Source: Tillus elongatus (Eukaryota; Arthropoda; Insecta; Coleoptera; Cleridae). From it: 64,000 nucleotides of DNA. Below the pieces are notes generated by a model. The model had not been told where the DNA came from. It was given only the letters and a program-made list of their open reading frames with translations, and ran no database searches. The translations under genes were made by a program, and so were the position numbers. Shown piece by piece: positions 5,828 to 41,140 of the stretch. The stretch's first letter is position 1, and every line of letters starts with the position of its first letter. The stretch is from NCBI GenBank assembly GCA_964006375.1, contig OZ023266.1, positions 16,979,565-17,043,564 of the forward strand. Reading direction: 5' to 3'.

Positions 5828-6392
5828 GTCAAAGGCAATGAAAAGGCTGACAGTCTCGCGAAGAGAGGGTCAGCAGAACCATTTATGGGACCAGAACCGG
5901 CTCTGGGCGTGACAAAGAGCACTGCCAGGGGAGCCAGTAAGTCCTGGGTCCAGGGCTCAGACATGGGAAGTCAACAATTGACGAACCCAGTTCAAAGAGA
6001 GCTGTGGAGCTGCTAAATCTTAGCAGAGGACAGCTCAGAAACACAACAGGTCTCTTGACGGGACACATGGCCGACAAAAAACACCTGCATAAAATGGGGC
6101 GGTTCGAAGGGGACCTCGCATGCAGACTCTACGGCGAGGGGGAGGAATCAGCCCAGCACATCTTGTGCGAGTGTAAAGCTCTGGACCGCAAAAGACAACT
6201 GATCTACGGTCAGTCTAGACCGGAGACAGAGCAATATAAAACTTCACCCTACCAATCGCTGTGCAGACTAGTTCAAGGCACAGTGATTTTGGAATGGGTG
6301 GAGTAAGACTAAGGGTATGCACAATCAACCAAAGGTTGCAATGCTATCGGGGCGGCAAGGCCGCGGACGAGCCCTGAGGAAAAAAGTCACCT
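5828..6392 (+). mobile_element. RNase H-type LINE, 3' fragment (family L, copy 1)
   Basis: This is a 5'-truncated fragment matching the last quarter of the 23.4 kb element. It begins in the RNase H C-terminus (KADSLAKRGSAEPFMGPEPA), passes through the Cys/His motif CRLYGEGEESAQHILCEC, in which the second Cys is Tyr, and stops at 6304-6306. The 3' UTR contains the family hairpin ggggcggcaaggccgcgg and an A tail. There is a deletion in the middle (SKSWVQGSDMG) and the frame is broken near 5970. It is non-functional. Confidence 0.92.
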
Positions 6393-20170: not shown

Positions 20171-20477
20171 ATTATTTCAACAACACACCACGAGGGCTCA
20201 CAGCCTAAATACTATCGTACCGTTGGTGTCGACAAGGAGGAAAGAGGCAACTTGTTAATTCTGGATGGACTTGAAGGTTTGTAGGTTCGGGGGAGAAGGA
20301 AAAACATGTGCCGGCAAGGAATTCCACAACTTGGAAGTCATCGGGACAAAAGAGCGGGCATAACAAGATGTTCTATGTCTGGTGACCTGGACAGTAAAAG
20401 GGTGCATTCGCTCTGTTCCTCTGGTAGATCTGTTGGAGGGCAGCAGGTGCAGGAAATATGGAAGAAAGCTCCTCTGA

Positions 20478-20546
<69 letters not shown>

Positions 20547-20895
20547 TCACCAACGGCACGTCGGTGGGCAAGGGATGGCAGCCTTTGGGCGAGAGTAGGG
20601 TCACCGATGAGACGTATAGCTCTCTTCTGAATGGAGTCCACGATAGCGAGTGTAGAAGCGGCAGCGGCACCCCAGATGTGGGAGCAGTATTCGAGGTTTG
20701 GCCTTATTTGTGAAGTATATAAGGTATAGAGATTAGCTGGTGACAAGTATTTGTGAGCCCGGAAGAGGAAACCTAATTTCTTAGCAGCCGCTTCTGCAAT
20801 TGATGTGACATGTTCGTGCCAATTTAGATTTCGATCCACAGAAATGAAAGTGAAAAGGACTCACTACTTTGAATAACTTTGTTGTAGGGTAAGTT
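20171..20895 (-). mobile_element. Jockey/CR1-group LINE, copy 5, with expanded microsatellite
   Basis: This is a 5'-truncated minus-strand copy covering the region from NLNWHEHVTSIAEAAAKKLG to the 3' end. It is open for almost 195 codons, but only because a (CT)n expansion replaces about 25 bp of normal sequence in frame. It lies within (TA)-core repeat sequence. Confidence 0.9.
20481..20544 (+). repeat. (GA)32 microsatellite within a LINE
   Basis: Sister copies have only four or five GA units at this place (near 9772, 37870 and 63205). This copy has 32 and lacks the adjoining tgcccgtgcagatatc segment. Confidence 0.95.
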
Positions 20896-23421: not shown

Positions 23422-25791
23422 GGAATAATGCCCATCATGCTCCAACAGGGGATAGATATACTGGCGCCGGTGCTTACCCTCATTATGAGGGCCAGCCTGG
23501 CTCTGGGGTACATTCCGAGGGCATGGAGACTGGCCAGGGTTGTATTTATTCCTAAACCTGGGCGTCCAACAGACCAGGCAAAGTCCCTGAGGCCAATAAG
23601 TCTCATGTCCTTCTTGCTGAAAACAGTGGAAAAACTGCTCGACCGGCACATTAGGGGCGGTGTACTGGAAGCATATCCTCTACACTGCGGACAATATGCA
23701 TACAGAGCAGGATTCTCAACAGAAACAGCACTGCACCAACTGGTGCTGAAACTGGAGAATACGCTGGAGAACAAGGAGGTGGCGCTGGGGGCCTTCCTAG
23801 ACATAGAGGGGGCCTTTAGCAACACCTCGTTCGGATCGGTTCTGGCAGCTGCCCGGGAGCGTGGAATAGAGGAGACCTGCTGCAGGTGGATCGGTTCCAT
23901 GCTCAGGGACAGGGCGGTGTTCACCTCACTCGCGGGAGGGACTCTGCTGGCGGGGGTCGCGGCGGGGTGTCCGCAGGGGAGCGTTCTGTCTCCCTTGCTC
24001 TGGTGTCTAGTCGTGGACGGCCTGCTGGGGAGGCTCTCGGGAGGGGGGTATGAGGTACAGGGCTATGCGGACGACATTGTCATCATAGTCCGAGGAAAGG
24101 TCACACAGGCAGTGTGGGAGCGTATGCAGACTGCACTGAAAGTGGTGGAAGGGTGGACGGTTGATCAAGGGCTCGGGGTGAGCCCCGAGAAAGCAACCGT
24201 CGTGCCGTTTACGAGGAGGAGGAAGTGTGAAAGCCACAGAACTCTCACTCTATACGGTAGGAGCGTTCCAATGGCCAGGGAGGTAAAATATCTTGGGGTC
24301 GTATTGGACTCTAAGCTAACCTGGAATGGTCACATTGGAAAAATACTGCGTAAGGCAGTCATGACCTTAGCCGTCACTAGGCGGCTATATGGAAAAACGT
24401 GGGGACTAAGACCTAGTATGGCCCACTGGCTGTACACAAGGGTGGTCAGACCATCGTTAACATATGCGGCACTGGTCTGGTGGCCTAAGGTGACACAATC
24501 CAGTGCCAAACAAAAACTAGGCAAGATCCAAAGGATGGCTTGCCTAGGCATCACAGGGGCCATGTCTTCAACCCCAACAGCCGCCATGGAGGTGTTGCTG
24601 GATCTACCCCCCCTACACTTCGTTATTATGGGAGAGGCCAGGCTAGGACTATACAGACTAGCCTGCAATGGTAGACTGAAGATCAACCCAGGCTTCAGGG
24701 GCCACTGCAAAATTCAGGAGATCGTGAAGGAACCCATGCTTGAAATGAGGTCAGACTTCGCGAGCCCGCGAATGTGCAGGGAAAACAACTTCACAGTGGA
24801 AATCCCTGATCGCGGGGCATGGCGGGAGGAGACACCGGGCATACCACGGGACGCGCTCGTCTGGTTCACGGACGGATCTGGCGGGGAGCGTGGGACGGGG
24901 GCAGGTGTTTACTCGGAAGGACCGAGGGTAAGTCACAGTATTTCCCTCGGAGCCCATGCAACGGTGTTTCAGGCCGAGATGTACGCCATCCTGCACTGTG
25001 TGCGGGAGAACAAGAGGAGGGGCTACACCAACAAGCGGATCCTCATAGCCACAGACAGCCAGGCAGCCCTTAAGGCACTAAGTAGCCCACGGGTAAATTC
25101 CTGGCTGGTGAGTGAGTGCCGAGACGAGACGAGCGACCTGGCTGGGCAGAATGAGGTGACCCTCATCTGGGTGCCGGGTCACTCGGGGGTCAAAGGCAAT
25201 GAAGAAGCTGACAGTCTCGCAAAGAGGGGGTCAGCAGAACCATTTATGGGACCAGAACCGGCTCTGGGCGTGTCAAAGAGCACTGCCAGGGGAGCCATTA
25301 AGTCCTGGGTCAGAAACCAACACAAGGTGTACTGGGCGGACTGTCCAGGGCTCAGACATGGGAAGTCAATAATTGACGGACCCAGTTCAAAGAGAGCTGT
25401 GGAGCTGCTAAACCTTAGCAGAGGACAGCTCAGAAACACAACAGGTCTCTTGACGGGACACATGGCCGTCAAGAAACACCTACATAAAATGGGGCGGTTC
25501 GAAGGGGACCTCGCATGCAGACTCTGCGGCGAGGGGGAGGAATCAGCCCAGCACATCTTGTGCGAGTGTATAGCTCTGGACCGGAAAAGACAACTGATCT
25601 ACGGTCACTCTAGACCGGAGACAGAGCAATATAAAACTTCACCCTACCAATCGCTGTGCAGACTAGTTCAAGGCACAGTGATTTTGGAATGGGTGGAGTA
25701 AGACTAGGGGTATGCACAATCAACCAAGGGTTGCGGTGCTATCGGGGCGGCAAGGCCGCGGACGAGCCCTGAGGGAACAAAAAAAAAAAAA
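23422..25791 (+). mobile_element. RNase H-type LINE (family L), copy 3, flanked by TSD
   Basis: This is a 5'-truncated insertion of 2.37 kb. Target duplication aaggtcttttcta occurs at 23409-23421 and again at 25792-25804, right after the A tail. The 3' UTR holds the hairpin ggggcggcaaggccgcgg. The long intact frame and clean duplication indicate a young insertion. ORF1 and the endonuclease are missing, lost to 5' truncation. Confidence 0.95.
23428..25701 (+). CDS. LINE polyprotein, reverse transcriptase plus RNase H (5'-truncated)
   Basis: The frame of 757 codons is uninterrupted. RT copies element RNA into DNA at a nicked target. Visible motifs are RT motif A FLDIEGAFSN with Asp125, motif B GCPQGSVLSPLLW at about 180-192, catalytic YADD at 213-216, and VKYLGVVLDSKLTW at 286-299. 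A typical RNase HI follows, with Asp482 (FTDGSGG), Glu517 (FQAEMYA), Asp543 (ATDSQAA), the GHSG motif and Asp595. A C-terminal CRLCGEGEESAQHILCEC motif (697-714) may bind zinc and nucleic acid. RNase H after RT places it in the I/R1/LOA group. The Met at 23428 is simply the first in the truncated frame; the true start and endonuclease lay upstream. All catalytic residues are present. Confidence 0.93.
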   Translation: MPIMLQQGIDILAPVLTLIMRASLALGYIPRAWRLARVVFIPKPGRPTDQAKSLRPISLMSFLLKTVEKLLDRHIRGGVLEAYPLHCGQYAYRAGFSTETALHQLVLKLENTLENKEVALGAFLDIEGAFSNTSFGSVLAAARERGIEETCCRWIGSMLRDRAVFTSLAGGTLLAGVAAGCPQGSVLSPLLWCLVVDGLLGRLSGGGYEVQGYADDIVIIVRGKVTQAVWERMQTALKVVEGWTVDQGLGVSPEKATVVPFTRRRKCESHRTLTLYGRSVPMAREVKYLGVVLDSKLTWNGHIGKILRKAVMTLAVTRRLYGKTWGLRPSMAHWLYTRVVRPSLTYAALVWWPKVTQSSAKQKLGKIQRMACLGITGAMSSTPTAAMEVLLDLPPLHFVIMGEARLGLYRLACNGRLKINPGFRGHCKIQEIVKEPMLEMRSDFASPRMCRENNFTVEIPDRGAWREETPGIPRDALVWFTDGSGGERGTGAGVYSEGPRVSHSISLGAHATVFQAEMYAILHCVRENKRRGYTNKRILIATDSQAALKALSSPRVNSWLVSECRDETSDLAGQNEVTLIWVPGHSGVKGNEEADSLAKRGSAEPFMGPEPALGVSKSTARGAIKSWVRNQHKVYWADCPGLRHGKSIIDGPSSKRAVELLNLSRGQLRNTTGLLTGHMAVKKHLHKMGRFEGDLACRLCGEGEESAQHILCECIALDRKRQLIYGHSRPETEQYKTSPYQSLCRLVQGTVILEWVE

Positions 25792-26148
25792 AAGGTCTTT
25801 TCTAAGGCAACGTATTCACCGAATTTCATTAAAATAAGTTTGTAATTTTCGGAGAATTTTTTTTCTAAAAAAACTATAAATTTGAATAACTCAATTTTTT
25901 ATAAACTTAGAAAGTTGAATTTTGGTGCGTGGGAAGGTCTTTCGCAAGGCAACATATCCATCAAATTTCATTAAAATAACTTTGTAATTTTCGGAGAAAA
26001 AAATTTTTTTTTCCTAAAGAAAACTCAAAATTTTCCCGGAAAACCTTGTCAGATTTTCCTGGCTAACGAACTCATCCAAGCCATTAATAAAGAAAGGTAC
26101 TTGCGAATGTTTCATTAAAATAGGTTAATTATTTTTGAGTTATCAGTT

Positions 26149-29168: not shown

Positions 29169-29697
29169 GCTGATAAATTGGGTTTAAGTGTAATTATTAG
29201 GGTACAAAAATATCATATTTTGTCTTTATCGGTTACGATATCGCTGACCGGCACCTGCATTACTCACGAGTCGCTACTGTCGAATCAAACAAGAATGACT
29301 TGTCACGTGGAAGACTTTACCGAAAATTGTTCGCTGTATTATTTCAACAGCCTTGCGGATGGGTTGGCTAAAGGTCGTTGAATTCTCTATCTCTTGCTCT
29401 TTTTATTGTGGTTTTTATTACTCTTGAAGATTGTTTAAATGACAATGTTGTTGTAACTGTTGGCAGAACGTAAACAATGTACGTATTAGGTAACGTAAAA
29501 TAGTGGTTGTGTAGGTTTGGACTTTTTTACATTCTAATAATGTGGGCAGTCGTGCAGGCCTCGAGCTGGATTTTGTGCTAAAATGTTTATGAATTGATTA
29601 ATAGTTTGTAAATGTTAAAGACTTCATACATTTGATTCCACAGCCTAAGAAAAAGAACTTTCTGTATAGGAGAGTAAATTGTAACATTATTCTAAAA
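29169..29697. other. No recognised gene
   Basis: One 72-codon frame (29163-29381) has a few cysteines but no recognisable domain or splice context. Nothing else is seen. Confidence 0.3.
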
Positions 29698-29785
29698 TAC
29701 TGTAAGATGTACGACAGGGTCGCGAGCTCGGTGCGGAACCGGGTAGTATGTTGTCAGGACAGCTCCAAATAACACAAAATGTTAT
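29698..29785 (+). repeat. ~307-bp repeat, left half of an interrupted unit
   Basis: This matches the unit segment with ggaaccgggtagtatgttgt and aacacaaaatgttata. The unit resumes at 31786 after a LINE insertion. Confidence 0.85.
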
Positions 29786-30320
29786 AATAATAATAATAAT
29801 AATAATATTTATTTGGTCCTTTAGTTACAATTATTGTAAATCGGACAAGTCAAAAAACTTACAAGATAAAAAAGATAAAAAACGTATCACAACTTATCAC
29901 AAGAGTACGTGCCCAAAAATCTAAAATCTAACGAGCTTCACATTACAACAAAAAACCATACGTTCACAGTACAGCTTCACAAAATTCACTCAAACTATAA
30001 AAACTATGAGTAATTAAAGCCACATTCAGTTGCTTTCTAAATTTTTTTGTATAATTTGTGTCCTTCAGAGAACAAGGCAGCTGGTTGTACAAAAAGCAAC
30101 CCGCATAACATGGCGACTTCTTAAAAAAAGAATGGTGACATTTATTCAGGTGAAAGGTATTTTTTTCACGAGTGTTGTATCCATGAAAATCCAAGTTGAT
30201 AACAAATTTTCTCTTGTTTCTATGAATGTAAGTTAACAGATGAAACAAATAAACTGATGTTAACGCCATAATGTTTTTTTTTTTAAATGTCACGACAAGA
30301 GTGCCCATAAGGTAGATTGT

Positions 30321-30374
30321 TTGCGGTGCTATCGGGGCGGCAAAGCCGCGGACGAGCCCTGAGGGAACAAAAAA
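30321..30374 (+). mobile_element. Ultra-short family L tail insertion with TSD
   Basis: Only about 45 bp of the family L 3' end (tgcggtgctatcggggcgg, gacgagccctgagggaac) plus an A run is present. The sequence aaggtagattgt occurs immediately before (30309-30320) and after (30375-30386), which proves it is an insertion. It has caaagccgcgg where long copies have caaggccgcgg. Confidence 0.9.
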
Positions 30375-30528
30375 AAGGTAGATTGTATATTAATCTCAGG
30401 ATTCGTTTCTGTAGCACAAATATTCTATGGCAGTCCGAAGATTGGCCCCAGATAATGATACCGTAACTCAGATGTGAATAGACAGCCGCGTAATAGACTT
30501 TCAGCAGATGTTCCGAGCTTAAGGAATC

Positions 30529-31639
30529 TTAAGGCATCAAAATTGCATAAAACGCGGAATTTAATTTCTTGCACACGTGATCAATCTGGTCTATATATAA
30601 CAGGCTACTGTCAATTCTAACACCTAAAAATTTTGTTACCTTTTTGAATCGCACCGCGTTTCCGTTCACCAAAATAGTGCTGTCGCACATCCTCTCTCTT
30701 CGGTGGCAGTTATGCATTTCAAGAGAAAAAGTCTTGTCATAGTTTAAAATTAGTCGATTTCTATAACACCATTCATCAAAAGATTGTACCACTGATTTTA
30801 ATTTTAATTCAGTTTCCTCCACCGTCTTGCCGTAGTCAACAATAGAAGTGTCATCGGCGTACATGAAGACTTTTCCGTCTTGTATAAATTGCGGCAAATC
30901 GTTTACATAGAGTGTAAACAAAAGTGGGCCAATGACACTTCCCTGGGGTGTGCCCATACTTACACTATATCTTTGGGAATTAATATTATTTGCTTTTACA
31001 AGTAACTGTCTGTTGGTGAGATACGAAAGTAGAAGGTCGTTGCAAGTGCCTCTTATCCCCAACGCCCACATCTTCTCCTTAACAAAAAACGGATTTACTG
31101 TGTCAAAGGCACGAGACAGGTCAAAAAATAAGGTCACCACAATGTAATTGAGGCCCATTCTTTCGTTTACATATTGAATGTATTCGATAAGGGCAGTTTC
31201 TGTAGAATAATCAGTTCTAAATCCGTGCTGTGATGGTGATATATTATTAGCGTTTAAAAACTTGACCATCCTTCTATGTACTGCCCTTTCTATGATGTTT
31301 GAAAAAAATGCTTAATATAGAGATGGGACGATAGTTCTCCAAATTGGTACTGTCTCCCGCCTTCAACACAGCAACAACCACAGCCAGTTTCAATATGTCA
31401 GGGAATTTTCCCAGACATATACAGGAATTTATAATCTTTGTAAGTGGCGCGGCAAGCTCAGCAGCACATTGCTTAATAATTTTTATTGGAACATCATCAA
31501 AGCCGCTTGATTTTTTATTAGGAAGTTCGTTGATGATTTCAATAACTTCACATTCAGTTACAGGTGTTATAAAAAGTGTTTTGGGCTTATATTGCTCGGC
31601 CGTGCAGCTATCAAACATCTGGCCCCCCAAATGCAACAT
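30529..31639 (-). pseudogene. LINE reverse transcriptase, one frameshift
   Basis: Two long frames (31639-31274 and 31269-30529) join into one RT. Motifs in order are VAVLKAGDSTNLENYRPISI, then after a frameshift near 31270-31320 SPSQHGFRTDYSTETALIEY, motif A TLFFDLSRAFDTVN, motif B GTPQGSVIGPLLFTLYVNDL, catalytic YADD (MYADDTSIVD) and TKFLGVRIDSSL. All catalytic Asp residues remain, so the damage is limited, but the frameshift inactivates it. Confidence 0.9.
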
Positions 31640-41026: not shown

Positions 41027-41086
41027 CTTTTTTTTTTCTCCCTCAGGGCTCGTCCGCGGCTTTGCCGCCCCGATAGCACTGCAGCG
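41027..41086 (-). mobile_element. Ultra-short family L tail insertion with TSD, second example
   Basis: On the minus strand it reads gcagtgctatcggggcgg, then caaagccgcggacgagccc and an A/G-rich tail. The decamer ccttctctct flanks it at 41017-41026 and 41087-41096. It starts at nearly the same position as the 30.3 kb insertion and shares its caaagccgcgg variant. Confidence 0.85.
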
Positions 41087-41140
41087 CCTTCTCTCTTGCA
41101 CGCAGACCAAATTCGAATGCAGTATTTGATGTATTGGAAG

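Follow-up and report, generated by a model that had tools for sequence, protein, structure and literature searches.

Two very short insertions in the window, by which we mean the whole 64,000-nucleotide stretch of Tillus elongatus DNA analysed here, are probably extreme 5'-truncated copies of a LINE. Judging from the sequence, they would have been produced by that element's own target-primed reverse transcription (TPRT), which either failed at a hairpin in the RNA tail or exhausted a template trimmed there. Their layout is that of TPRT products: a LINE tail and an A run lie between target-site duplications, and the tail types are equal to those of long copies. As the initial annotation had proposed, 30321-30374 is an ultra-short LINE-tail insertion with its own duplication, exact over 12 bp on both sides, and a second such insertion, at 41027-41086, is bracketed by duplications of 10 bp. 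With start positions counted in nucleotides upstream of the anchor CTATCGG, the features of the two insertions and of the parent LINE are as follows.

30321..30374, + strand: copy 1, a tail-only LINE insertion of 54 bp, with 48 nt of LINE tail from -8 and then an A run
30309..30320, + strand: left target-site duplication of copy 1, AAGGTAGATTGT, 12 bp, exact
30375..30386, + strand: right target-site duplication of copy 1, AAGGTAGATTGT, 12 bp, exact
30337..30349, + strand: upper stem of hairpin 2 in copy 1, GCGGC-AAA-GCCGC, with the A/G site at 30344 (sequence and fold of the same stem)
41027..41086, - strand: copy 2, a tail-only LINE insertion starting at -9/-10, with an oldest-type tail and an A loop
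41017..41026, - strand: target-site duplication of copy 2, AGAGAGAAGG, 3' side, 10 bp
41087..41096, - strand: target-site duplication of copy 2, AGAGAGAAGG, 5' side, 10 bp
23428..25701, + strand: LINE ORF with RVT_1 and RNase_H domains (757 aa when read from an internal ATG), representing the sort of element that supplies the copied tails
25714..25739, + strand: predicted hairpin 1 of the long copy (GCAC..CAACC-AAG-GGTTG..GTGC); the -27/-28 peak of starts corresponds to 25711-25712
25747..25759, + strand: upper stem of hairpin 2 in the long copy (GCGGC-AAG-GCCGC; sequence and fold)
25739..25778, + strand: LINE 3' end, CTATCGG...GGGAAC, ahead of the A run
6344..6381, + strand: 3' end of a further long LINE copy from this family, with a G loop
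16716..16732, + strand: 3' end of an older long copy, with a changed hairpin 2

The tail of copy 1 is of the young LINE type (TTGCGGTG...GGGAAC) and that of copy 2 of the oldest type (GCTGCAGTG...GGGAG), each with an A in the hairpin-2 loop. When up to 3 mismatches were allowed, a 20-mer of the tail matched the window four times, against 0.00 expected in shuffles; two of these matches are the short copies, with A, and two are long copies, with G (anchors 6344 and 25739). The two insertions had been taken to share both their start and the A variant. The starts are indeed close but not identical (-8 versus -9/-10), and both fall within the broad cluster described below, outside the -27/-28 peak. 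The A is present in both, with G in the two long copies matched, but it gives no evidence of one lineage, because the two tails are of different types. Copy 1 is flanked by two minus-strand reading frames, the right-hand one of which (260 aa) resembles the reverse transcriptase of a LINE by the look of its translation. Minus-strand frames at 20255-20839 and 29300-31500, the second of which hosts copy 1, resemble parts of other LINE reverse transcriptases when their translations are read.

The LINE ORF of the window, as read without its N-terminal part, contains RVT_1 and RNase_H domains and has 938 relatives; among the 120 listed, identity was 43-57%, many carry endonuclease domains, and one distant protein match is named Lian-aa1. 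Lian belongs to the LOA clade. When 6.5 kb upstream of each of the first 20 copies was compared, 5 copies were tail-only, and the length shared with other copies was about 0.35-2.7 kb for 11 and about 4.9-5.2 kb for 4.

Tail-only copies make up a large part of this family. In the 1.72 Gb of genome searched (30 contigs), the tail 20-mer with A or G had 10,749 exact matches, against 0 in a backward control; an A-variant 38-mer had 324 matches, and a 23-mer lying 3' of the hairpin-2 upper stem had 5,913. Our first sample comprised the first 100 of the 10,749 20-mer matches, on contig C1, and was not picked by length; the second comprised the first 100 matches of the 23-mer, 60 of them common to the first sample and 40 new. 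Every copy fetched from outside the window lies on contig C1, the exact-match anchors favour young copies, and start positions as well as short or long labels were assigned by hand from alignments and duplication finds. Tail-only copies, with a start at -31 or nearer, accounted for 37 of the 100 copies in the first sample, the other 63 being longer, and for 33 of 100 in the second, where 12 new short ones were judged by eye. The tail-only share is thus about a third in both samples, and if it holds, some 3,500 of the 10,749 matches would be tail-only.

In the first sample, 33 of the 37 short copies have, by an automatic search, a duplication that is 7 nt or longer and stops 0-3 nt ahead of the LINE match, and 30 of these 33 duplications are 11-14 nt long. 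That search found none for L051, L085 and L095, while the duplication of L092 was mis-called by the finder and is not counted, its neighbour L093 giving a start of -27. Among the 12 new short copies of the second sample, no duplication was seen for two (L143 and L178), and three start in hairpin 2 (L171) or at its 5' foot (L141 and L145).

Some of these loci show further particulars. Extra bases stand between duplication and tail in L127 (TTT), L162 (CTCG), L041 (ACG) and L117 (TA), such as might remain if the enzyme added nucleotides without a template. L080, a tail-only copy with a 13-bp duplication, sits in an older long copy of this LINE, within its tail. Like flanks recur at separate places on contig C1, in L104/L130, L106/L121 and L107/L120 (6.3-9.9 Mb) and in L092/L093 (648 bp apart, 4.69 Mb), and these locus pairs point to segmental or local duplications.

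For the analysis of starts, three duplicated loci were left out of the first sample, giving n = 34, with L051, L085 and L095 placed by their LINE match alone. The starts lie 1, 2, 2, 3, 3, 5, 7, 7, 8, 8, 9, 9, 10, 10, 11, 11, 12, 12, 13, 15, 15, 18, 22, 27 (four times), 28 (six times) and 31 nt upstream of the anchor. Hence 23 of the 34 are spread across hairpin 1 (-1 to -22), and 10 fall at -27/-28 against 24 elsewhere; a 2-nt peak of at least 10 arose in 0.0009 of simulations under a uniform null over 32 positions (n = 34). Located at TATGCAC or ATGCAC, the peak precedes the first base pair of hairpin 1 by 2-3 nt and is seen in young and older tail types. None of the 100 copies in the first sample starts between -33 and -89, and 4 of its 63 long copies end within -90 to -200 (at -90, -115, -132 and -178). 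Relative to -33 to -200, the end rate over the last 31 nt is 32 times as high with these four ends and 25 times as high with five, the fifth being an end of L056 at -98 that is an alignment artefact. The gap between -33 and -89 is not absolute: among 30 A-variant loci there are 2 independent starts at -38 to -47, one in L036 and one in L029/L030/L035, which were counted once for their common flank. These last three loci, all A-variant copies on contig C1, have the identical upstream flank caggccatagaatacaaatata, and the short tail copy in them was apparently multiplied as a passenger of another repeat or of a duplication.

The initial annotation had set a smooth spread of truncation points beside a fixed reverse-transcriptase stop at a structured hairpin, and the starts bear out each in part. 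They are broadly spread from -1 to -22, but the spread then halts and gives way to the sharp peak at -27/-28. They do gather in a hairpin or at its foot, but this is hairpin 1 and not hairpin 2, the bearer of the A/G site.

In the predicted fold, which is alike for one young and one old type, hairpin 1 (GCAC..CAACC-AAG-GGTTG..GTGC) is followed by hairpin 2 (GCGGC-AAR-GCCGC with outer pairs), and the z-scores of the whole-tail fold are only -1.6 and -1.3. Across 47 distinct tails, selected for likeness to two consensus strings and for an almost exact anchor, only one of the 9 pairs of hairpin 1 changes on both sides (-16/-8, A-T to G-C, with G-T between), and pair -18/-6 is unpaired in 45% of the tails. 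Hairpin 1 is modestly supported by these results, which counts against the truncation reading preferred below. An Rfam search of window positions 25600-25850 returned chance-level matches only (E of 6 or more) and no known structured RNA. The predicted energy of hairpin 1 is -8.7 kcal/mol for the young type and for types A (AGGCC/GGGCTG) and C (AAGCC/AGGCTG), and -6.3 kcal/mol for type B (AAGCC/AGGTTG). Hairpin-1 strength as a cause of the excess of short copies in type A was rejected, as type A and the young type both stand at -8.7 kcal/mol.

We propose the following course of events. The LINE RNA would fold, over its last ~70 nt, into the two predicted hairpins, and this stretch would presumably be the part bound by the LINE protein. 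Copying would begin at the A run and traverse hairpin 2 in nearly all sampled copies; about a third would then end within hairpin 1 or just beyond its 5' foot, and past this zone most would extend for hundreds to thousands of bases. The spread of ends from -1 to -22 may well reflect a reverse transcriptase blocked by a hairpin that is still folded or held by protein. With equal reason, the sharp -27/-28 ends can be read as run-off at the 5' end of an RNA trimmed to the protected foot of the hairpin, the other option for them being an enzyme stop on leaving the hairpin. A plain hairpin stop would be expected at the 3' foot and not 2-3 nt beyond the 5' foot, and the peak is better read as run-off on a trimmed RNA, because an enzyme coming from the 3' side first meets the hairpin elsewhere.

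Three published studies bear on these steps: 3'-UTR fragments of 68 and 98 nt are TPRT templates for R2 proteins (PMC12180492), 5'-end template trimming is a proposed source of truncated R2-based insertions (PMC11331408), and proteins of stringent-type LINEs bind a stem-loop of the 3' tail (PMC4176376). By analogy, the R2 work renders both hairpin failure and trimmed-template run-off plausible here. An extension that we consider unlikely is that a stable tail fragment of ~70 nt, which terminates at the hairpin-1 foot, is loaded as an independent template and that, in one older subfamily, it would form a promoterless, headless mini-SINE outnumbering its LINE.

Among the alternatives is a mini-SINE proper, in which the tail alone would be produced as a discrete RNA whose 5' end is fixed at -27/-28, and the LINE machinery would copy it again and again, at least for the AATAGGCCAAGGGCTGCAGTG type, which is seen with an A loop; we hold this to be distinctly improbable. 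The A variant, which the initial annotation had offered as the possible mark of such an element, does not set the short copies apart. It is equally rare in short and long copies of the first sample (3 of 37 versus 4 of 63; Fisher p 0.71), and tail mismatches per 18 nt are alike in the two classes (0.41 short, 0.49 long). Of 30 loci matching the A-variant 38-mer, 17 are tail-only, with starts up to -47, and 13 are long, extending from 112 to at least 1,494 nt upstream. Long LINEs with the A variant thus exist, among them L018, a long copy of the young type with A like copy 1, and the A loop was rejected as a mini-SINE mark.

The exactness of the -27/-28 starts does speak for a separate RNA, and it recurs in older tails. 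The older-type ATGCAC without the two G that stand upstream of it in the LINE has 289 genomic matches; in the first 100 of these the base at -28 is A in 40, C in 25, T in 25 and G in 10, and since this base is mixed, most of the 289 seem to begin at -27. In 13 of 20 older copies that were retrieved, a match that stops 0-1 nt ahead of ATGCAC spans 6 nt or longer, and in 11 of these it reaches 7 nt or longer; of the rest, L181 is a repeat of the site within a LINE tail and 6 are ambiguous.

The numbers of short and long copies in two old types also favour a mini-SINE. By a count made by eye and done twice, AGGCCAAGGGCTG occurs in 36 and AAGCCAAAGGTTG in 33 of the first 100 of the 289 older-type rows. 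Scaled to 289, this gives ~104 short copies with AGGCCAAGGGCTG, for the AATAGGCCAAGGGCTGCAGTG type, and ~95 with AAGCCAAAGGTTG, for the AAGCC/GGTTG type; correcting by 16/9 for G that stands upstream by chance, under the assumption of even base use, raises these to ~185 and ~170. Places with the GG of the LINE upstream number 72 for the AATAGGCCAAGGGCTGCAGTG type and 403 for the AAGCC/GGTTG type, so that the estimated short:long ratio is 2.6 versus 0.4 (1.4 versus 0.24 uncorrected). A roughly six-fold difference between two old types is unpredicted by plain truncation. Moreover, copies of the AATAGGCCAAGGGCTGCAGTG type and its near variants are short in 7 of 8 cases, against 42 of 112 other copies in the two samples (Fisher p 0.008), but the contrast is not significant among the A-variant loci taken by themselves (short:long 5:1 versus 10:12, p 0.17).

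Against a mini-SINE stands the existence of LINE-like copies of the AATAGGCCAAGGGCTGCAGTG type, at the 72 places above and in L011, the single long copy examined, of 1.1 kb. At 87.6% identity to the young LINE, L011 is among the most diverged copies; the type thus appears to be old, and losses may have fallen more heavily on its long copies. For the young, AAGCC and AGGCC types alike, the short copies agree with long copies of the corresponding type, and the short copies have no head, target DNA lying directly upstream of the start. The old AATAGGCCAAGGGCTGCAGTG subfamily either made more tail-only copies, or lost more of its long ones, or had a tail lineage that propagated itself; it offers the strongest case left for a mini-SINE. 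The 3' part of this type is also found in copy 2 of the window.

We think it very improbable that a ribosome, while terminating at the LINE stop codon, fixes the end by halting the reverse transcriptase or a nuclease. In the young type, -28/-27 are positions 13/14 from the first base of the stop codon, a distance that, given the size of a ribosome footprint, fits the ribosome edge. Older types, however, have 3 more bases between stop codon and hairpin and still start at -27/-28, at the hairpin foot, which disfavours a ribosome; from these alignments, the end would appear to be set by the position of the hairpin and not by the stop codon.

Least probable of all is ordinary random 5' truncation, with the short copies as the low end of a smooth length distribution: although truncation is general in the LINE family, as the lengths of the first 20 copies show, and starts within -1 to -22 are spread, 37 of 100 starts lie within 31 nt and none in the next 57 nt, and neither the 25- to 32-fold higher end rate in the tail nor the sharp -27/-28 peak fits such a distribution.

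Truncation during TPRT at or near hairpin 1, the reading that we prefer, places these insertions close to several known systems. Like ordinary 5'-truncated TPRT copies of LINEs, they have an intact 3' end with an A run, lack the 5' end, are flanked by duplications of mostly 11-14 bp and share the tail types of long copies; unlike them, their ends are concentrated 25-fold or more in 31 nt, with a peak at one dinucleotide, and about a third of copies are tail-only. SINEs that share a LINE tail are likewise short, A-tailed, flanked by target duplications and mobilised by LINE enzymes, whereas the copies here are headless and variable at the 5' end, with a tail equal to LINE types of the same genome; in 33 of the 37 short copies of the first sample, the 0-3 nt between duplication and LINE match leave no room for a SINE head. 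Stringent-type LINEs such as UnaL2 and ZfL2-1/2, as described in PMC4176376, resemble this family in having a short 3' tail and, directly ahead of the end, predicted hairpin structure, but here there are two predicted hairpins and a protein with reverse transcriptase and RNase H. SIDEs, the short, internally deleted R2 elements treated in PMC3414825, are also non-autonomous pieces with a LINE 3' end; they retain the 5' ribozyme, whereas the tail-only copies retain nothing 5' of the tail. Finally, truncation of R2-based insertions in cells is ascribed to 5'-end template trimming, much as proposed here, in an engineered system; the parts of that report considered here (PMC11331408) contain no fixed end at a tail hairpin. 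Among the titles and abstract openings returned by one open-access library for a few terms, none dealt with LINE copies that consist of the tail only and begin at a fixed position, and we do not claim that none is in print.

The frequent 5' truncation of LINE copies is a long-standing puzzle, for which a weak enzyme, a broken template and host repair have been considered. With many tail-only insertions ending on a predicted hairpin, the genome could serve as a record of early TPRT failure points. The TPRT reading predicts either an escape step, in which the recognition hairpin is released, or a protected tail fragment with a known 5' end. Insertions this short are easily overlooked by repeat annotation.

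Two pairs of long copies on contig C1, L055/L056 (2.34 Mb) and L135/L136 (10.69 Mb), lie on opposite strands, ~1 kb and 5 kb apart, respectively, each pair with a common 3' flank. L055 and L056, which are among the 11 intermediate copies noted above, in addition show a more extended match to one another, in the manner of an inverted pair, with L056 reaching ~1.6 kb. The loop base is G in L135 and A in L136; given their common 3' flank, it must therefore have mutated in one of the two after insertion.
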